Source: Acidobacteriota bacterium (GTDB lineage: Bacteria; Acidobacteriota; Terriglobia; Bryobacterales; Bryobacteraceae). From it: a DNA stretch of 5,715 bases. The stretch covers positions 1-5,715 of the forward strand of contig JAJYKC010000211.1 of NCBI GenBank assembly GCA_021788955.1, in the 5' to 3' direction. A program made the translations under genes and the position numbers. This document shows positions 1-5,715 of this stretch, piece by piece; position 1 is the stretch's first letter, and each line of letters opens with the position of its first letter. A model generated the notes under the pieces. That model searched no databases. It saw nothing but the letters and a program-made list of their open reading frames with translations, and had not been told where the DNA came from.

Positions 1-858
1 GATGTCGATCGTGTCCGGCGCCGTGCGTCCGTCAGGATATGCATAAATGCCGCCCGCGGCCACTGCGCTGATCGGGTCGTCCTGCAGCATAAACATGTGC
101 ACCGCGTCGATCCAGTGCGTGAACAGGTCTGTAACCTGCCCGCCGCCGAAATCGAGGTATGCGCGGAAATTCCAGTACTGCTGCGGATCCCAGTCGCGCC
201 ATTTCACGGGGCCCAGGAACATATCCCAATCGAGGTTCGCCGGCTTCTGCGCAAGCGAGGCCGGCGCTTTCCGCAGGTGCCATGAGTTGCCGTGCCACCA
301 TGTGCGTGCAAGCGTGATTTTGCCGAGTTTGCCCGCTTGAATATACTGGTCGCGCGCCTGCATGTAGTGCGGTCCGGAGCGCTGCTGCATGCCGGTCTGA
401 AATACGCGATTGTTTTCGCGCGCCGCTTTGACGACCTTCGGGCCTTCCTCGATGGTGAGCGTCAGCGGCTTCTCGCAGTAAACGTCCTTGCCGGCTTCCA
501 CCGCGGCGATCGAGATGCGCGAGTGCCAGTGGTCCGGCGTAGCGATGAGAACCGCGTCCAGGTCTTTGCCGTCATCGAGAAGTTTGTGGAAGTTGCCGTA
601 CTTCCTCGCGTCGGGGGCCTTCTGCGCGGCCTCGTCAACGCGGTCGCCCCAGACGTCGCAGAGCGCGGCCACATGAACCGCCGGGTTCTTCTGAAAGATG
701 CCCATGTCGTACTGGCCGCGCGAGCCGCAGCCGATCACGCCGAGTTGAACGCGGTCGTTGGCGCCCAGCACGCGGGAGTAACTGGCGGCTGTAACGGCGA
801 CGGCGCTCGTGGCGGCGGCGCGAAGAACACTGCGGCGGTTGACGTCCTGGTCCGGCAT
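1..858 (-). CDS. Tat-exported Gfo/Idh/MocA family NAD(P)-dependent oxidoreductase, 3' end cut by the window
   Basis: Reverse-strand reading from the ATG at 856-858 gives 286 residues with no stop before the window edge, so the C-terminus is missing. The N-terminus NRRSVLRAAATSAVAVTAAS (residues 7-26) has twin arginines followed by a hydrophobic, alanine-rich stretch, which looks like a Tat signal for export of a folded cofactor protein. A Rossmann motif GVIGCGSRG follows (residues 40-48), then TPDHWH (107-112) and the family signature EKP (129-131). GGGQVTD..THW (238-249) carries the Asp244/His248 pair typical of the catalytic domain. The family oxidises or reduces sugars, inositols and related polyols with NAD(P); the substrate here cannot be told. 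Exported members are frequent in Acidobacteria, Planctomycetes and Bacteroidetes and often act on carbohydrates outside the cytoplasm. The ATG is supported by the Tat motif directly after it; no strong Shine-Dalgarno is visible. The gene is transcribed divergently from trmFO. Confidence 0.93.
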   Translation of the reverse strand, partial: MPDQDVNRRSVLRAAATSAVAVTAASYSRVLGANDRVQLGVIGCGSRGQYDMGIFQKNPAVHVAALCDVWGDRVDEAAQKAPDARKYGNFHKLLDDGKDLDAVLIATPDHWHSRISIAAVEAGKDVYCEKPLTLTIEEGPKVVKAARENNRVFQTGMQQRSGPHYMQARDQYIQAGKLGKITLARTWWHGNSWHLRKAPASLAQKPANLDWDMFLGPVKWRDWDPQQYWNFRAYLDFGGGQVTDLFTHWIDAVHMFMLQDDPISAVAAGGIYAYPDGRTAPDTIDI

Positions 859-911
859 AATCTGCCAGTATATCCTCGGAGACTCCGCCAGGTCCGATAT
901 CCTGAGAGCGA
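859..911. promoter_or_regulatory. Divergent intergenic region with candidate promoters/operator
   Basis: This 53-bp gap must hold the 5' signals of both the oxidoreductase (minus) and trmFO (plus), unless promoters lie inside the genes. A perfect 11-bp palindrome CGGAG-A-CTCCG lies at 877-887. It is flanked by two direct copies of ATATCCT at 870-876 and 897-903, whose starts are 27 bp apart. TATATCC (869-875) and GATATCC (896-902) could serve as poor -10 elements, but no clear -35 box can be paired with them. The operator role is a guess from position and symmetry alone. Confidence 0.3.
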
Positions 912-2246
912 GTGCGAATTGCGATTTTAGGCGGCGGATTAGCGGGAGTCGAGGCGGCCTTGCAGGTGGCTCGTGCGGGCCTCGATTGCACTCTCCATGA
1001 GATGCGTCCTCTCGTCAGCACATCCGCGCATAAGACGGACCGTTTCGCCGAACTGGTCTGCAGTAACTCGCTCAAGAGCGAAACATCCGACACCGCGCCA
1101 TGGCTGCTCAAGGAAGAACTGCGGCGCATGGGTTCGGCCCTGCTCGAAGCCGCCGCACGGGCGCGTGTTCCCGGTGGGCAGGCGCTCACCGTCGACCGTG
1201 ACGTGTTCGCCGAAGAAGCCACGCGAGCGGTGGAAGGCAATGCGCGCATCGAAGTGGTTCGCGGCGAAGCTGTCGAAATCCCGCGTGAGGGAATCGTCAT
1301 CGTCGCCACTGGTCCGCTCACTTCCGGCTCGCTCGCCGAGGACATCGGCCGCCTCACCGGAACCAACCGCCTGTTCTTCTACGACAGCATCAGCCCGATC
1401 GTGGATGCGTTTACCATCGACCGCAACATCGTCTTCGCCGCCTCCCGCTACGGCAAGTCGATCGACGGCTCTGACGACTATCTCAATTGTCCACTCAATC
1501 GCGAAGAATACGAGCGGTTCGTCGATGGGGTGCTCGCCGCGCGGAGTGCGCCGTCGCATATCCCCGAAGACCATCCGAAATTCTTCGAAGCCTGCCTGCC
1601 GATTGAAGAACTCGCCCGCCGCGGACGCGACACGCTGCGCTTTGGTCCAATGAAGCCAATGGGGCTCATCGACCCGCGAACCGGACGCAGGCCGTATGCC
1701 GTGGTGCAGATGCGCCAGGAGAACCTGCGCGCCGAAAGCTACAACCTAGTCGGCTTCCAGAACCATATGCGATTCGAAGAACAGCAGCGCGTGTTCCGCC
1801 TGGTTCCAGGCCTGGAACAGGCCGTGTTCCTGCGCTATGGCCAGGTGCATCGCAACACGTATATCAACGCGCCCTCGCTGCTCACACCGACGCTGCAATT
1901 GCGCACCAAGCCCGAGGTTTTCTTCGCCGGCCAGATCTCCGGCGTCGAAGGGTACGTCGAATCTATAGCCACCGGACTCATCGCCGGGCGGAACGCGGCG
2001 GCGCTAGCGCGGGAGGAGCCAGTGGTTCCCTTTCCGCGCGAAACCGCTCTCGGCTCGCTGTGTGCTTATGTCTCGAGTGCAGACCCATCAAACTATCAGC
2101 CGGCCAACATTACCTTCGACCTGCTGCCGCCGCTCGAAGAAGCGGAGCGGATCAAGCTCGGACGCGACCGGCGCGCCCGTCACGCCGCGATCTGCCGGAG
2201 GGCGCTCGAAAGCCTCGATGCCACGCTTTCCGCCGGGGTCCGATGA
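912..2246 (+). CDS. trmFO: Methylenetetrahydrofolate--tRNA-(uracil-5-)-methyltransferase TrmFO
   Basis: TrmFO makes ribothymidine at U54 of the tRNA T-loop in the cytoplasm. It uses 5,10-methylenetetrahydrofolate as carbon donor and FAD/NAD(P)H as reductant, unlike SAM-dependent TrmA. The 444-residue product matches the usual family length (about 435-450). It opens with the FAD-binding motif ILGGGLAGVEAA (residues 5-16), followed by HEMRP (29-33), TDRFAELVCSNSL (42-54), VATGPLTS (131-138), RYGKS..DDYLNCP (179-194), FFEACLPIEELARRG (224-238) and FGPMKPMGLIDPRTG (244-258). ISGVEGYVESIATG (342-355) is the C-terminal FAD-site motif. Cys50 and Cys228 correspond to the two functionally important cysteines of Bacillus TrmFO (C53 and C226). 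The start is GTG at 912, chosen because the Rossmann motif begins within five residues. A weak GAGAG (904-908) is the only ribosome-binding candidate and is close to the start. The stop overlaps the xerC start, so the two genes are probably translated from one mRNA. Confidence 0.97.
   Translation: MRIAILGGGLAGVEAALQVARAGLDCTLHEMRPLVSTSAHKTDRFAELVCSNSLKSETSDTAPWLLKEELRRMGSALLEAAARARVPGGQALTVDRDVFAEEATRAVEGNARIEVVRGEAVEIPREGIVIVATGPLTSGSLAEDIGRLTGTNRLFFYDSISPIVDAFTIDRNIVFAASRYGKSIDGSDDYLNCPLNREEYERFVDGVLAARSAPSHIPEDHPKFFEACLPIEELARRGRDTLRFGPMKPMGLIDPRTGRRPYAVVQMRQENLRAESYNLVGFQNHMRFEEQQRVFRLVPGLEQAVFLRYGQVHRNTYINAPSLLTPTLQLRTKPEVFFAGQISGVEGYVESIATGLIAGRNAAALAREEPVVPFPRETALGSLCAYVSSADPSNYQPANITFDLLPPLEEAERIKLGRDRRARHAAICRRALESLDATLSAGVR
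2243..2246 (+). other. ATGA stop/start overlap joining trmFO to xerC
   Basis: The TGA of trmFO (2244-2246) overlaps the ATG of xerC (2243-2245) in the tetranucleotide ATGA. A GGGG at 2235-2238 is the only, weak, ribosome-binding candidate, so xerC is probably expressed by termination-reinitiation coupled to trmFO. The overlap also fixes the xerC start. Confidence 0.85.
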
Positions 2247-3142
2247 GCCCGCTGAGCCAGGCCATCGACGCGTATCTCGACGAACTCCGCCGGCGCAACG
2301 CTTCCGCCCACACCGTGCGTAACTACGGCGCCGACCTGCGCGAGTTTTTGACATACTTTTCTCCGCCCGAGGGCGACCCACCCTCGCCGGCCGCCTTCAG
2401 CACGCTCGAATTTCGCGAGTGGATGGGCAACCTGCACGCCCAGGGCCTCAGTGCCATCACCATCCGCCGCAAGCTTGCCGCGGTACGGGGTCTCTTCGGT
2501 TTCCTCCATCGCCGCGGCGAGATTCCCACAAACGCCGCCAAGAGAGTGCGGACGCCTCGCGCGCCCAAACTTGCTCCCAGCGTGCCGAACGCCGAAACCA
2601 CCAATCAGCTCATCGACGCCGTGACCGCGGACAAACTCGAACGCCCCTTCCCTGCCCGCGACCGACTGCTGTTCGAGTTACTGTACGGCTGCGGTCTGAG
2701 AATTAGTGAGTTGGTAGGCTTGAAGCTCGAAGACTTCGACCGTAGCGAGCGCTGGCTGCGCGTCCGCGGCAAGGGCAATAAGGAGCGCGAGGTGCCCTAC
2801 GGAGCGAAGGTTGAGGAAGCACTGGTGCGGTACCTGGAGAACCGGCAGCCGCATGACCCCGCCGCGCGGGATCTCTTGCTGAACGCCCGCGGCGGTAGGC
2901 TGACCGACCGTGGCGCCCGCGGAATCGTGAAGCTCTACGCGATCGCCCTCAGCGGCGACCCCTCGCTGCATCCGCATAGTTTCCGGCACGCTTACGCAAC
3001 CCACTTACTCGCCGACGGCGCCGACTTACGCGCGATTCAGGAGTTACTCGGCCACGCGAGCCTGTCCACCACCCAGCGCTACACCCAACTCTCGCTTACC
3101 GACCTGATGGCCGAGTACGACCGGGCGCACCCCAAGGCTTAA
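2243..3142 (+). CDS. xerC: Xer-type tyrosine recombinase (XerC/CodV)
   Basis: The 299-residue product has the size of XerC/XerD (298 in E. coli). These enzymes resolve chromosome dimers by strand exchange at dif during division. Residues about 1-95 form the N-terminal SAM-like DNA-binding domain (TVRNYGADLREFL at 24-36, TIRRKLAAVRGLF at 73-85). Residues about 110-295 form the catalytic domain with the full active site: Arg153 in GLRISELVGL, Lys177 in RGKGNKER, His245 and Arg248 in HPHSFRHAYATHLL, His271 in LLGHASLSTTQRY, and nucleophile Tyr280. Each lies five residues beyond its E. coli XerC equivalent (R148, K172, H240, R243, H266, Y275), so the spacing is intact. The ATG at 2243 is preferred over an in-frame ATG at 2060, which would add 61 residues antagonistic to family length and lie inside trmFO. 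XerC rather than XerD is inferred from the trmFO linkage, also known in Firmicutes (gid-codV). No att-like repeats or phage genes suggest a mobile integrase. The 3' end overlaps the convergent deiodinase-like gene. Confidence 0.92.
   Translation: MSPLSQAIDAYLDELRRRNASAHTVRNYGADLREFLTYFSPPEGDPPSPAAFSTLEFREWMGNLHAQGLSAITIRRKLAAVRGLFGFLHRRGEIPTNAAKRVRTPRAPKLAPSVPNAETTNQLIDAVTADKLERPFPARDRLLFELLYGCGLRISELVGLKLEDFDRSERWLRVRGKGNKEREVPYGAKVEEALVRYLENRQPHDPAARDLLLNARGGRLTDRGARGIVKLYAIALSGDPSLHPHSFRHAYATHLLADGADLRAIQELLGHASLSTTQRYTQLSLTDLMAEYDRAHPKA
3044..3142. other. Convergent 3' overlap of xerC and the deiodinase-like gene
   Basis: The last 99 bp of xerC (encoding the Tyr280 region and C-terminus) are also the antisense template of the last 33 codons of the deiodinase-like gene, because that frame has no stop until TAA at 3044-3046. 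No T-tract-flanked hairpin is visible at the junction (3143-3200), so the two transcripts may run into each other. Confidence 0.7.
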
Positions 3143-3841
3143 CTTCGCCGGGGCCACGCTGTCAAGAAGCGGCTGCATGTCGCGCGGATGGAAACCGAAC
3201 GGTCCGGGCTTGCTCCGGAAAACAATGCGCCCTTGCGTGTCGATCACGTACAGCCGGTCCGGCCAGCCGTTGTACTCCACCTCCACGCGGTTGTCCATGC
3301 CGTCGAGCAGCGCGGGAATCGCGATGTGCAGTTTGCGCACACAGCTACCAGCCACCGTCTCGCGCGCGAGCAGCGTCGTCGGATTCCGAAAAATCACTCC
3401 CTGCCGAATGTTGTCCGGCATCTGCCAGAAGTCGCTCGCATGCGCCTCCTGAATATAGACGATGTAGAATGCCACGCGGTCCTTGTACTTCCGATACATC
3501 TCGTTCAGGACGGGAACCTCCCGCCGGAAAGGCGGTCAAGTGTAGCTTCCAAAAACCAGCACCACCGGACGCACGCCGCGCAGCGAAGCCAGGTGAACCG
3601 GCGGGCCGCCTCGTAGCGGAGAAAGCGCAAAATCGGGCGCCATCGTATCCACCGACGCGCTGCCCGCCCGCGCCTGCGTCCATAGCGTCTCAAACGGAAG
3701 CACGAGGAAAACCAAGCCCGGCATCTTCGCCATGAAAGACGCGAAAACTCCGGGTGGCTGGAGCATCTGATGGTAGATGAGCGCCACGAAGCACACCCAC
3801 ATCGCGAGGAGGACTGTGAACGCTCCCTTGACTGGACCCAT
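3044..3841 (-). CDS. Iodothyronine deiodinase-like selenoprotein, thioredoxin fold, membrane-anchored; in-frame TGA read as selenocysteine
   Basis: Reading from ATG 3841 to TAA 3044-3046 gives 265 codons with a single internal TGA at codon 102. Residues 7-26 (GAFTVLLAMWVCFVALIYHQ) and about 32-50 look like membrane segments. A thioredoxin-like domain follows from APDFALSPL (68-76). RPVVLVFGSYT-U-PPF (91-105) matches the DIO1 active site RPLVLNFGSCT-U-PSF. FYIVYIQEAHASDFW (125-139) matches FLVIYIEEAHASDGW, and His134 lies 32 residues after Sec102, the same spacing as Sec126-His158 in DIO1. PDRLYVIDTQGRIVF (194-208) and KPGPFGFHP (211-219) continue the match. The family reductively removes iodine from thyroid hormones in animals. 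The bacterial substrate is unknown, and a general thiol/peroxide or dehalogenating redox role is inference. The start is 10 nt after the rnr stop and lacks a clear Shine-Dalgarno, so coupling to rnr is likely. The last ~33 residues are antisense to xerC and lie beyond the conserved domain. The alternative is a pseudogene or a sequencing error at a Cys codon; the candidate SECIS element argues against both. Confidence 0.88.
3504..3530 (-). promoter_or_regulatory. Candidate bacterial SECIS element (selenocysteine insertion stem-loop)
   Basis: Counting from the base after TGA, nt 11-17 (GGCGGGA, 3525-3519) pair with nt 21-27 (TCCCGTC, 3515-3509). This makes a 7-bp stem (one G-U pair) closed by a GGU apical loop (3518-3516). 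Below a 2x2 mismatch, UUU (3530-3528) can pair with GAA (3506-3504). The loop begins 17 nt after the TGA and starts with G. In E. coli fdhF the GGU loop starts 18 nt after its UGA, where SelB binds. The element lies inside the coding sequence, with the upper stem encoding residues 105-111. A competing hairpin CCGCC-TTTCC-GGCGG (3535-3521) is possible but places its loop too close to the TGA. Confidence 0.75.
3536..3538 (-). other. In-frame TGA recoded as selenocysteine (Sec102)
   Basis: The reverse strand reads GGA AGC TAC ACT TGA CCG CCT TTC (Gly-Ser-Tyr-Thr-Sec-Pro-Pro-Phe). The frame is open for 101 codons before and 163 codons after it, and conserved family motifs lie on both sides. The TGA falls exactly at the catalytic selenocysteine position of the deiodinase family. 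The true stop of the gene is TAA, consistent with TGA being recoded. Confidence 0.87.
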
Positions 3842-3851
3842 GAGAAACAGG

Positions 3852-5715
<1,864 letters not shown>

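Follow-up and report, generated by a model that had tools for sequence, protein, structure and literature searches.

A stretch of 5,715 nucleotides (nt) from an Acidobacteriota bacterium (assembly GCA_021788955.1, contig JAJYKC010000211.1, positions 1 to 5,715; hereafter the window) raises the question of whether two short open reading frames (ORFs) on its minus strand are separate genes or the halves of one deiodinase-like selenoprotein gene, here called dio, that is hidden by an in-frame TGA, and of what such a protein would do in a bacterium. A conserved TGA, homologues that continue through it and selenocysteine (Sec) genes in relatives support a hidden selenoprotein, as the initial annotation of the window had proposed. 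We consider it highly probable that the source organism, an acidobacterium near Bryobacterales, carries a gene for a membrane-anchored PF00837 selenoprotein in which UGA102 is read as Sec and which acts as a selenol reductase on a substrate other than iodothyronines.

Bacterial deiodinase-like proteins have been described before. The Sargasso Sea study of 2005 reported Sec and cysteine (Cys) forms with a bacterial selenocysteine insertion sequence (SECIS) and suggested a redox role (PMC1088965), and the selenoproteins appeared again in the Global Ocean Sampling (GOS) study of 2008 (PMC2398784), in which the table lists no motif. Reviews of 2022 and 2026 list the family with the motif UxxC (PMC9312934, PMC13188914). 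This literature judges thyroid hormone not to be the substrate, and the initial annotation had likewise described the family as known. The window protein is like these proteins in its PF00837 domain, its Sec/Cys-type active site and its bacterial SECIS, but its motif is UPPF rather than the UxxC of the reviews, with no Cys at Sec+3; this position is Phe in 85 of the 86 TGA-containing proteins parsed below and Tyr in one. Our literature search, which left most subscription papers outside its coverage, found no link between bacterial deiodinases and Acidobacteria, and the accessible part of PMC12013277 does not mention deiodinase. The window gene is a well-supported added member of the known bacterial family, with a UPPF motif.

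One reading frame with one in-frame TGA

Positions 3841-3044 of the minus strand form a single frame of 265 codons, running from an ATG at 3841 to a TAA at 3046-3044, with the TGA at codon 102 (3538-3536) as its sole interruption. The ATG of the second ORF, at 3499, sits 114 codons past the first ATG, and the two ORFs are separated by the TGA and 12 open codons. These positions and counts agree exactly with those first given for a hidden 265-codon frame, as does the spacing of 32 residues from Sec102 to His134. The gene and its interruption are the following:

3044..3841, minus strand: deiodinase-like selenoprotein gene dio, 265 codons, one in-frame TGA (from the frame, the PF00837 score and the DIO2/DIO3 fold)
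3536..3538, minus strand: in-frame TGA, predicted selenocysteine 102, in GSYT-U-PPF (TGA in loci L001-L003; active-site codon in the TGA-containing loci read)

ORF callers split dio, and the protein collection carries only a C-terminal piece of 151 amino acids (aa), so the expectation that standard annotation would split or truncate the gene was correct. One such fragment, P0002, belongs to the window itself, and close relatives account for P0003 and P0005 (the latter named hypothetical protein). The joined halves are predicted as one fold, with a mean predicted local distance difference test (pLDDT) score of 91.4. Chance adjacency of two ORFs was ruled out because the halves share this single fold and because all 89 TGA-containing loci read (window included; 86 parsed automatically and three by reading) have the TGA at the active-site codon.

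The split made by ORF callers also fits a gene broken by a nonsense mutation or an assembly error. However, the same TGA codon stands in the window, in three separate metagenome-assembled genome (MAG) records and in numerous further genomes, the frame is preserved past it, and the hairpin that follows the codon is constrained at synonymous sites. The conserved TGA in MAGs and many loci refutes breakage or sequencing error as a general explanation, and we regard its probability as negligible.

Conservation of the TGA in related genomes

Re-reading of 3536-3538 gave TGA, neither TGC nor TGT. When the protein was compared with genome contigs, three MAG loci (L001-L003; Acidobacteria/Bryobacterales; 90-92% identity) had TGA at the same codon in 3/3 cases. 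A PF00837 search of 299 genomes of the class to which one of these MAGs (G001) belongs returned 111 matches in 99 genomes, 90 of them with TGA and 21 without any stop, and 86 of the 99 matching genomes hold at least one TGA-containing match. In a protein search of 297 genomes of the phylum, 16 genomes matched with an E value of 1e-20 or lower, and of the 17 matches listed all but one contain TGA, the position of which was checked only for genomes inside the class. The loci read comprised 87 of the 90 TGA matches (all except G165, G167 and a second, weak G163 match), the window, L002 and five of the 21 TGA-free matches. Automatic parsing succeeded for 90 of these 94; L098, L100, L105 and L108, read separately, gave three TGA and one Cys. 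The set was mostly picked for TGA, and its counts therefore give no TGA frequency. The active-site codon is Cys in 5/5 TGA-free loci read, and these belong to other subtypes (GSYSCPNFR, GSYTCPNFR, GSYTCPQLR and GSATCP). It had been asked whether relatives have Sec or Cys at position 102 and whether homologues end there. They do not end there; they have TGA, with the frame running on past it, or Cys.

Cys occupies the active-site column in 71 of the 120 proteins of the protein search and Trp in 39; five others have Gly, Arg or Ser there, and five lack the column. The Trp entries (for example P0004) all come from the Joint Genome Institute (JGI), except P0106. Such entries would favor a reading in which TGA encodes tryptophan under genetic code 4. 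Against this, the column exchanges with Cys, selB and tRNA-Sec co-occur with the gene, and TGA ends trmFO in the window; as the normal stop of that gene it makes a general reassignment unlikely. Taken together, code 4 is a very improbable explanation of codon 102. The Trp cases are probably TGA codons that were translated by code 4, mostly on short contigs, and would amount to a systematic misannotation of the deiodinase-like selenoprotein.

Longer deiodinase-like proteins were also encountered. In P0116 and P0118-P0121 (332-426 aa), some of which carry TPR or EF-hand domains, the active-site residue is Cys, as it is in L103 and L106, with open frames of 480 and 565 aa. All of these look like other subtypes.

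Selenocysteine machinery

At strict thresholds, tRNA-Sec was found in 203 and selB in 215 of the 299 class genomes. At least one of selB and tRNA-Sec is present in 85 of the 86 genomes that hold a TGA-containing match, and both are present in 73; of the other 213 genomes, 143 have at least one (Fisher p 3.5e-11, relatedness uncorrected). The initial annotation had called for a search of the source genome for selA, selB, selC (tRNA-Sec) and selD. In the genomes of three close relatives, tRNA-Sec, selA and selD scored over the cut-off in 3/3 each, and selB in two of the three. The selD match of each of these relatives (L133-L135) itself holds one in-frame TGA, and on this account their SelD is probably a selenoprotein.

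A predicted hairpin downstream of the UGA

A candidate signal for Sec insertion follows the UGA:

3509..3525, minus strand: predicted bacterial SECIS hairpin, apical GGU at 3518-3516 (from covariation, frozen synonymous codons and a recoding test, p 0.02)

The element reads GGCGGGA-GGU-UCCCGUC, and its loop lies 17 nt after the UGA. The p value is that of synonymous recoding of the window. Covariation was examined on 71 distinct sequences out of 86 rows, with the structure taken from the window's hairpin minus pair 15-29. Hairpin pairs were formed in 84.7% of cells versus 68.2% in shuffles, and cells changed on both sides of a pair numbered 66 versus 29.5. The covariation score of 0.397 compared with 0.147 for shuffles, none of 500 reaching it, and with 0.246 for the best slid version. 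Part of the changes track amino-acid changes, but in two pairs one side is a wobble base: the 37 sequences that have C at column 26 all have G at column 18, the remaining 34 have C at column 18, and column 27 mostly tracks column 17.

Codon usage pointed the same way. The same peptide, PPFRREVP, is encoded by 46 of the 86 loci, and within it the hairpin codons are near-frozen (CGG 46, GAG 46, GTT 45 and CCC/CCT 45 of 46), in contrast to the Pro, Pro, Phe and Arg codons ahead of them, which vary. On multi-locus tests, a predicted SECIS-type hairpin with G in its apical loop stands just 3' of the UGA. The GGU loop presumably resembles that of the E. coli fdhF SECIS.

Fold and active-site residues

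The joined protein scored 93.1 bits against PF00837 (gathering cut-off 27) and 191 bits over residues 63-223 against NF038285, the NCBIfam deiodinase family protein, which is below the curated cut-off of 250. The GSxT-(U/C)-P active site of PF00837 appears here as GSYT-TGA-PPF. The best fold matches of the model are DIO2 and DIO3; no bacterial deiodinase-like structure was among the matches listed (50 in each search), an absence that says little. Identity with mammalian DIO3 (4tr3) and DIO2 (9h48) is 26-27% over the domain. One segment of the active site can be placed directly:

3440..3457, minus strand: active-site strand Y129-I-Q-E132-A-H134, corresponding to Tyr197, Glu200 and His202 of DIO3 (alignment to 4tr3; homologue counts)

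In the deiodinase mechanism, as described in PMC12025243, a proton is carried via a His219, Glu200 and Ser167 network with Tyr197 and Thr169, the hormone is bound by His202 and Arg275, and Cys168 and Cys239 recycle the enzyme. On the alignment to 4tr3, Sec170, Ser167, Thr169, Tyr197, Glu200 and His202 of DIO3 are kept as Sec102, S99, T101, Y129, E132 and H134. Across 120 homologues that were not selected by motif, these positions are near-invariant (Ser 113/115, Thr 113/115, Tyr 119/120, Glu 120/120 and His 119/120); the 86/86 conservation in TGA proteins is partly built in, as the selection motif includes the Ser, Thr and E-x-H positions. In contrast, the positions of His219, Arg275, Cys168 and Cys239 are occupied by Pro154, Pro212, Tyr100 and Ile175, and His at column 154 occurs in only 6 of the 120 homologues and 1 of the 86 TGA proteins. 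The proximal Cys is required for glutathione reduction in DIO1 (PMC9141512), and DIO2 itself is without it (PMC12025243). Judged by alignment, the protein retains the catalytic core but lacks the hormone clamp as well as the recycling cysteines known from DIO3. The resemblance to deiodinases first proposed holds in the active-site core and does not reach the DIO3 positions of the second His, the Arg clamp and the resolving Cys. From what is kept and what is lost, we infer a selenol-based reductase with another substrate.

These residues bear on whether the protein is a true reductive dehalogenase that strips iodine, bromine or chlorine from aromatics by the deiodinase mechanism. The five retained DIO3 positions other than Sec, whose roles are those given above, and the top rank of DIO2 and DIO3 among fold matches speak for it. 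The four replaced positions speak against it, and no organohalide gene was present among the 17 neighbouring proteins scanned. We consider such a dehalogenase unlikely.

The sole candidate inner resolving Cys is Cys167, which is Cys in 109 of the 120 closer homologues. As a universal resolving Cys it was dropped, being Cys in only 54 of the 86 TGA proteins and Phe in 32. The protein also differs from ResA and CcmG (thioredoxin-fold envelope reductases) and AhpE (a 1-Cys peroxiredoxin) in lacking an active-site CxxC and carrying deiodinase motifs.

Membrane anchor and C-terminal tail

The two ends of the protein lie outside the catalytic domain:

3776..3832, minus strand: N-terminal membrane anchor, residues 4-22, the most hydrophobic 19-mer (Kyte-Doolittle mean 2.22; model helix 2-26)
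3044..3142, minus strand: C-terminal tail of dio, antisense to the xerC 3' end (xerC frame 2243-3142, plus strand; stop kept in L001-L003; low pLDDT)

A hydrophobic N-terminal stretch was present in 79 of 84 scored proteins of the 86. In the charge-flank analysis, for which anchor hydrophobicity was scored in 83 of 86 proteins, net charge was more positive before than after the anchor in 63 of 78, which suggests a periplasmic catalytic domain. The window's own anchor flanks are charge-balanced, and the periplasmic placement is therefore weak for the window protein.

The last 32 dio codons and the stop (3142-3044) are antisense to the xerC 3' end, a tail-to-tail overlap of 99 bp. This tail is poorly predicted (block pLDDT 70 down to 47), and the dio stop position is identical in L001-L003. 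The 48 residues that follow F217 exceed the corresponding tail of most relatives.

Gene neighbourhood

Directly upstream of dio, with 10 nt from its stop to the dio ATG, lies a gene on the same strand:

3852..5705, minus strand: rnr (RNase R), the 5' end of which may run off the window (TIGR02063, 643.6 bits, over the cut-off)

A plus-strand trmFO-xerC pair converges on dio, and a Gfo/Idh/MocA-type oxidoreductase gene lies at the window's edge. Within the pair, the ATGA at 2243-2246 overlaps the trmFO stop TGA with the xerC start ATG, which shows that this genome uses TGA as an ordinary stop. Gene order around dio is in general not conserved. The survey parsed 86 of 89 loci (L184, L186 and L190 were left out), and 6 of the 86 have rnr next to dio.

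Six of the 86 loci have an AhpD-like gene no more than 4 kb away on the dio strand; it adjoins dio in five and is 2.4 kb away in one. Its active site is CPY-TGA or CPF-TGA in five of the six and CKFC in one; a family of CMD-like proteins with CxxU is among the selenoproteins listed in PMC13188914. The AhpD/CMD-like neighbours seen are L114:7642-8238 on the minus strand (the same gene in L169), which stands behind selA and selB, and those of L143, L165, L171, L183 and L189. In G268 a one-strand order of an AIRS-domain (selD-like) gene, selA, selB, AhpD-like gene and dio was observed. At a PF02627 density of about 1.1 per Mb in ten genomes, about 0.27 same-strand cases would be expected in the 475 kb examined; six of the ten had been picked for having the neighbour, and the other four alone give 0.24. 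The resulting enrichment, P about 4e-7, is too favourable because the family was tested after the G268 sighting and the loci are related.

In species that have it, the AhpD-like neighbour favors a peroxide-type role; for the window, where dio stands next to rnr, it is only a hint. A selenol peroxidase, peroxiredoxin-like and paired in some species with a Sec-containing AhpD-like protein, is a serious possibility, though we do not favor it. Opposed to it are the replacement of Cys167 by Phe in part of the TGA proteins, the similar scores of many thioredoxin-like folds, and the scarcity and expected location of AhpD described next.

Points against the proposed reading

Several observations pull against a Sec-containing selenol reductase, and those on AhpD also count against a peroxidase. 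The window has no AhpD-like neighbour, and none was seen in 80 of the 86 loci, 30 of which were viewed to 1.5 kb only, and the family was looked for after its sighting in one locus. AhpD is normally cytoplasmic, whereas the charge rule puts the dio domain outside. The evidence on sel genes comes from the genomes of relatives; selB was not found over the cut-off in G003, and G191, one of the 86 genomes with a TGA match, gave no selB and no tRNA-Sec at the thresholds applied.

The hairpin has weak points as well. Folded alone, the window RNA did not outperform its shuffles (z 0.02 to 0.41), and the recoding test reached p 0.05 in only 37 of the 86 loci. Pairs with two-sided changes numbered four, an unexceptional count reached by 76 of 500 shuffles, and pair 15-29, omitted from the covariation structure, is formed in only 31 of 86 loci. 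The three core pairs are present in 74 of the 86 loci; 12 have the hairpin shifted 4 nt downstream (three have both) and three have neither. Rfam returned no matching SECIS model. In a four-genome DNA alignment, the hairpin was highly conserved, but another part of the gene more so: an invariant run of 39 nt in the anchor region exceeded the 24-nt run at the hairpin.

Proposed function and significance

With these points weighed, a non-iodothyronine selenol reductase is still the reading we prefer. Computation shows the frame, the homology, the predicted fold, the conserved UGA, the covarying hairpin and the Sec machinery of relatives, whereas Sec insertion in this cell, the periplasmic placement, the reductase chemistry and the class of substrate are inferred. 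SelB and tRNA-Sec would read UGA codon 102 as Sec, directed by the GGU-loop hairpin 17 nt downstream. The thioredoxin-fold domain would use its selenolate, in a deiodinase-like Ser-Thr-Tyr-Glu-His setting, to reduce a small molecule, and the enzyme might regain its reduced state through Cys167 or from an external donor. An iodothyronine is probably not the substrate; the likeliest candidates are hydroperoxides and other oxidised or halogenated compounds encountered at the cell envelope.

A TGA-containing deiodinase-like match occurs in 86 of the 299 class genomes, and gene callers cut such genes short or break them in two. The kept and lost active-site residues, together with the AhpD-like neighbour of some species, turn the role of bacterial deiodinases into specific assays. 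A bolder proposal, that the deiodinase-like and Sec-containing AhpD-like proteins of Acidobacteriota form a selenium-based pair that detoxifies peroxides or organohalides, seems to us distinctly unlikely. If true, this pair would be a bacterial counterpart showing a role for the deiodinase fold without thyroid hormone.
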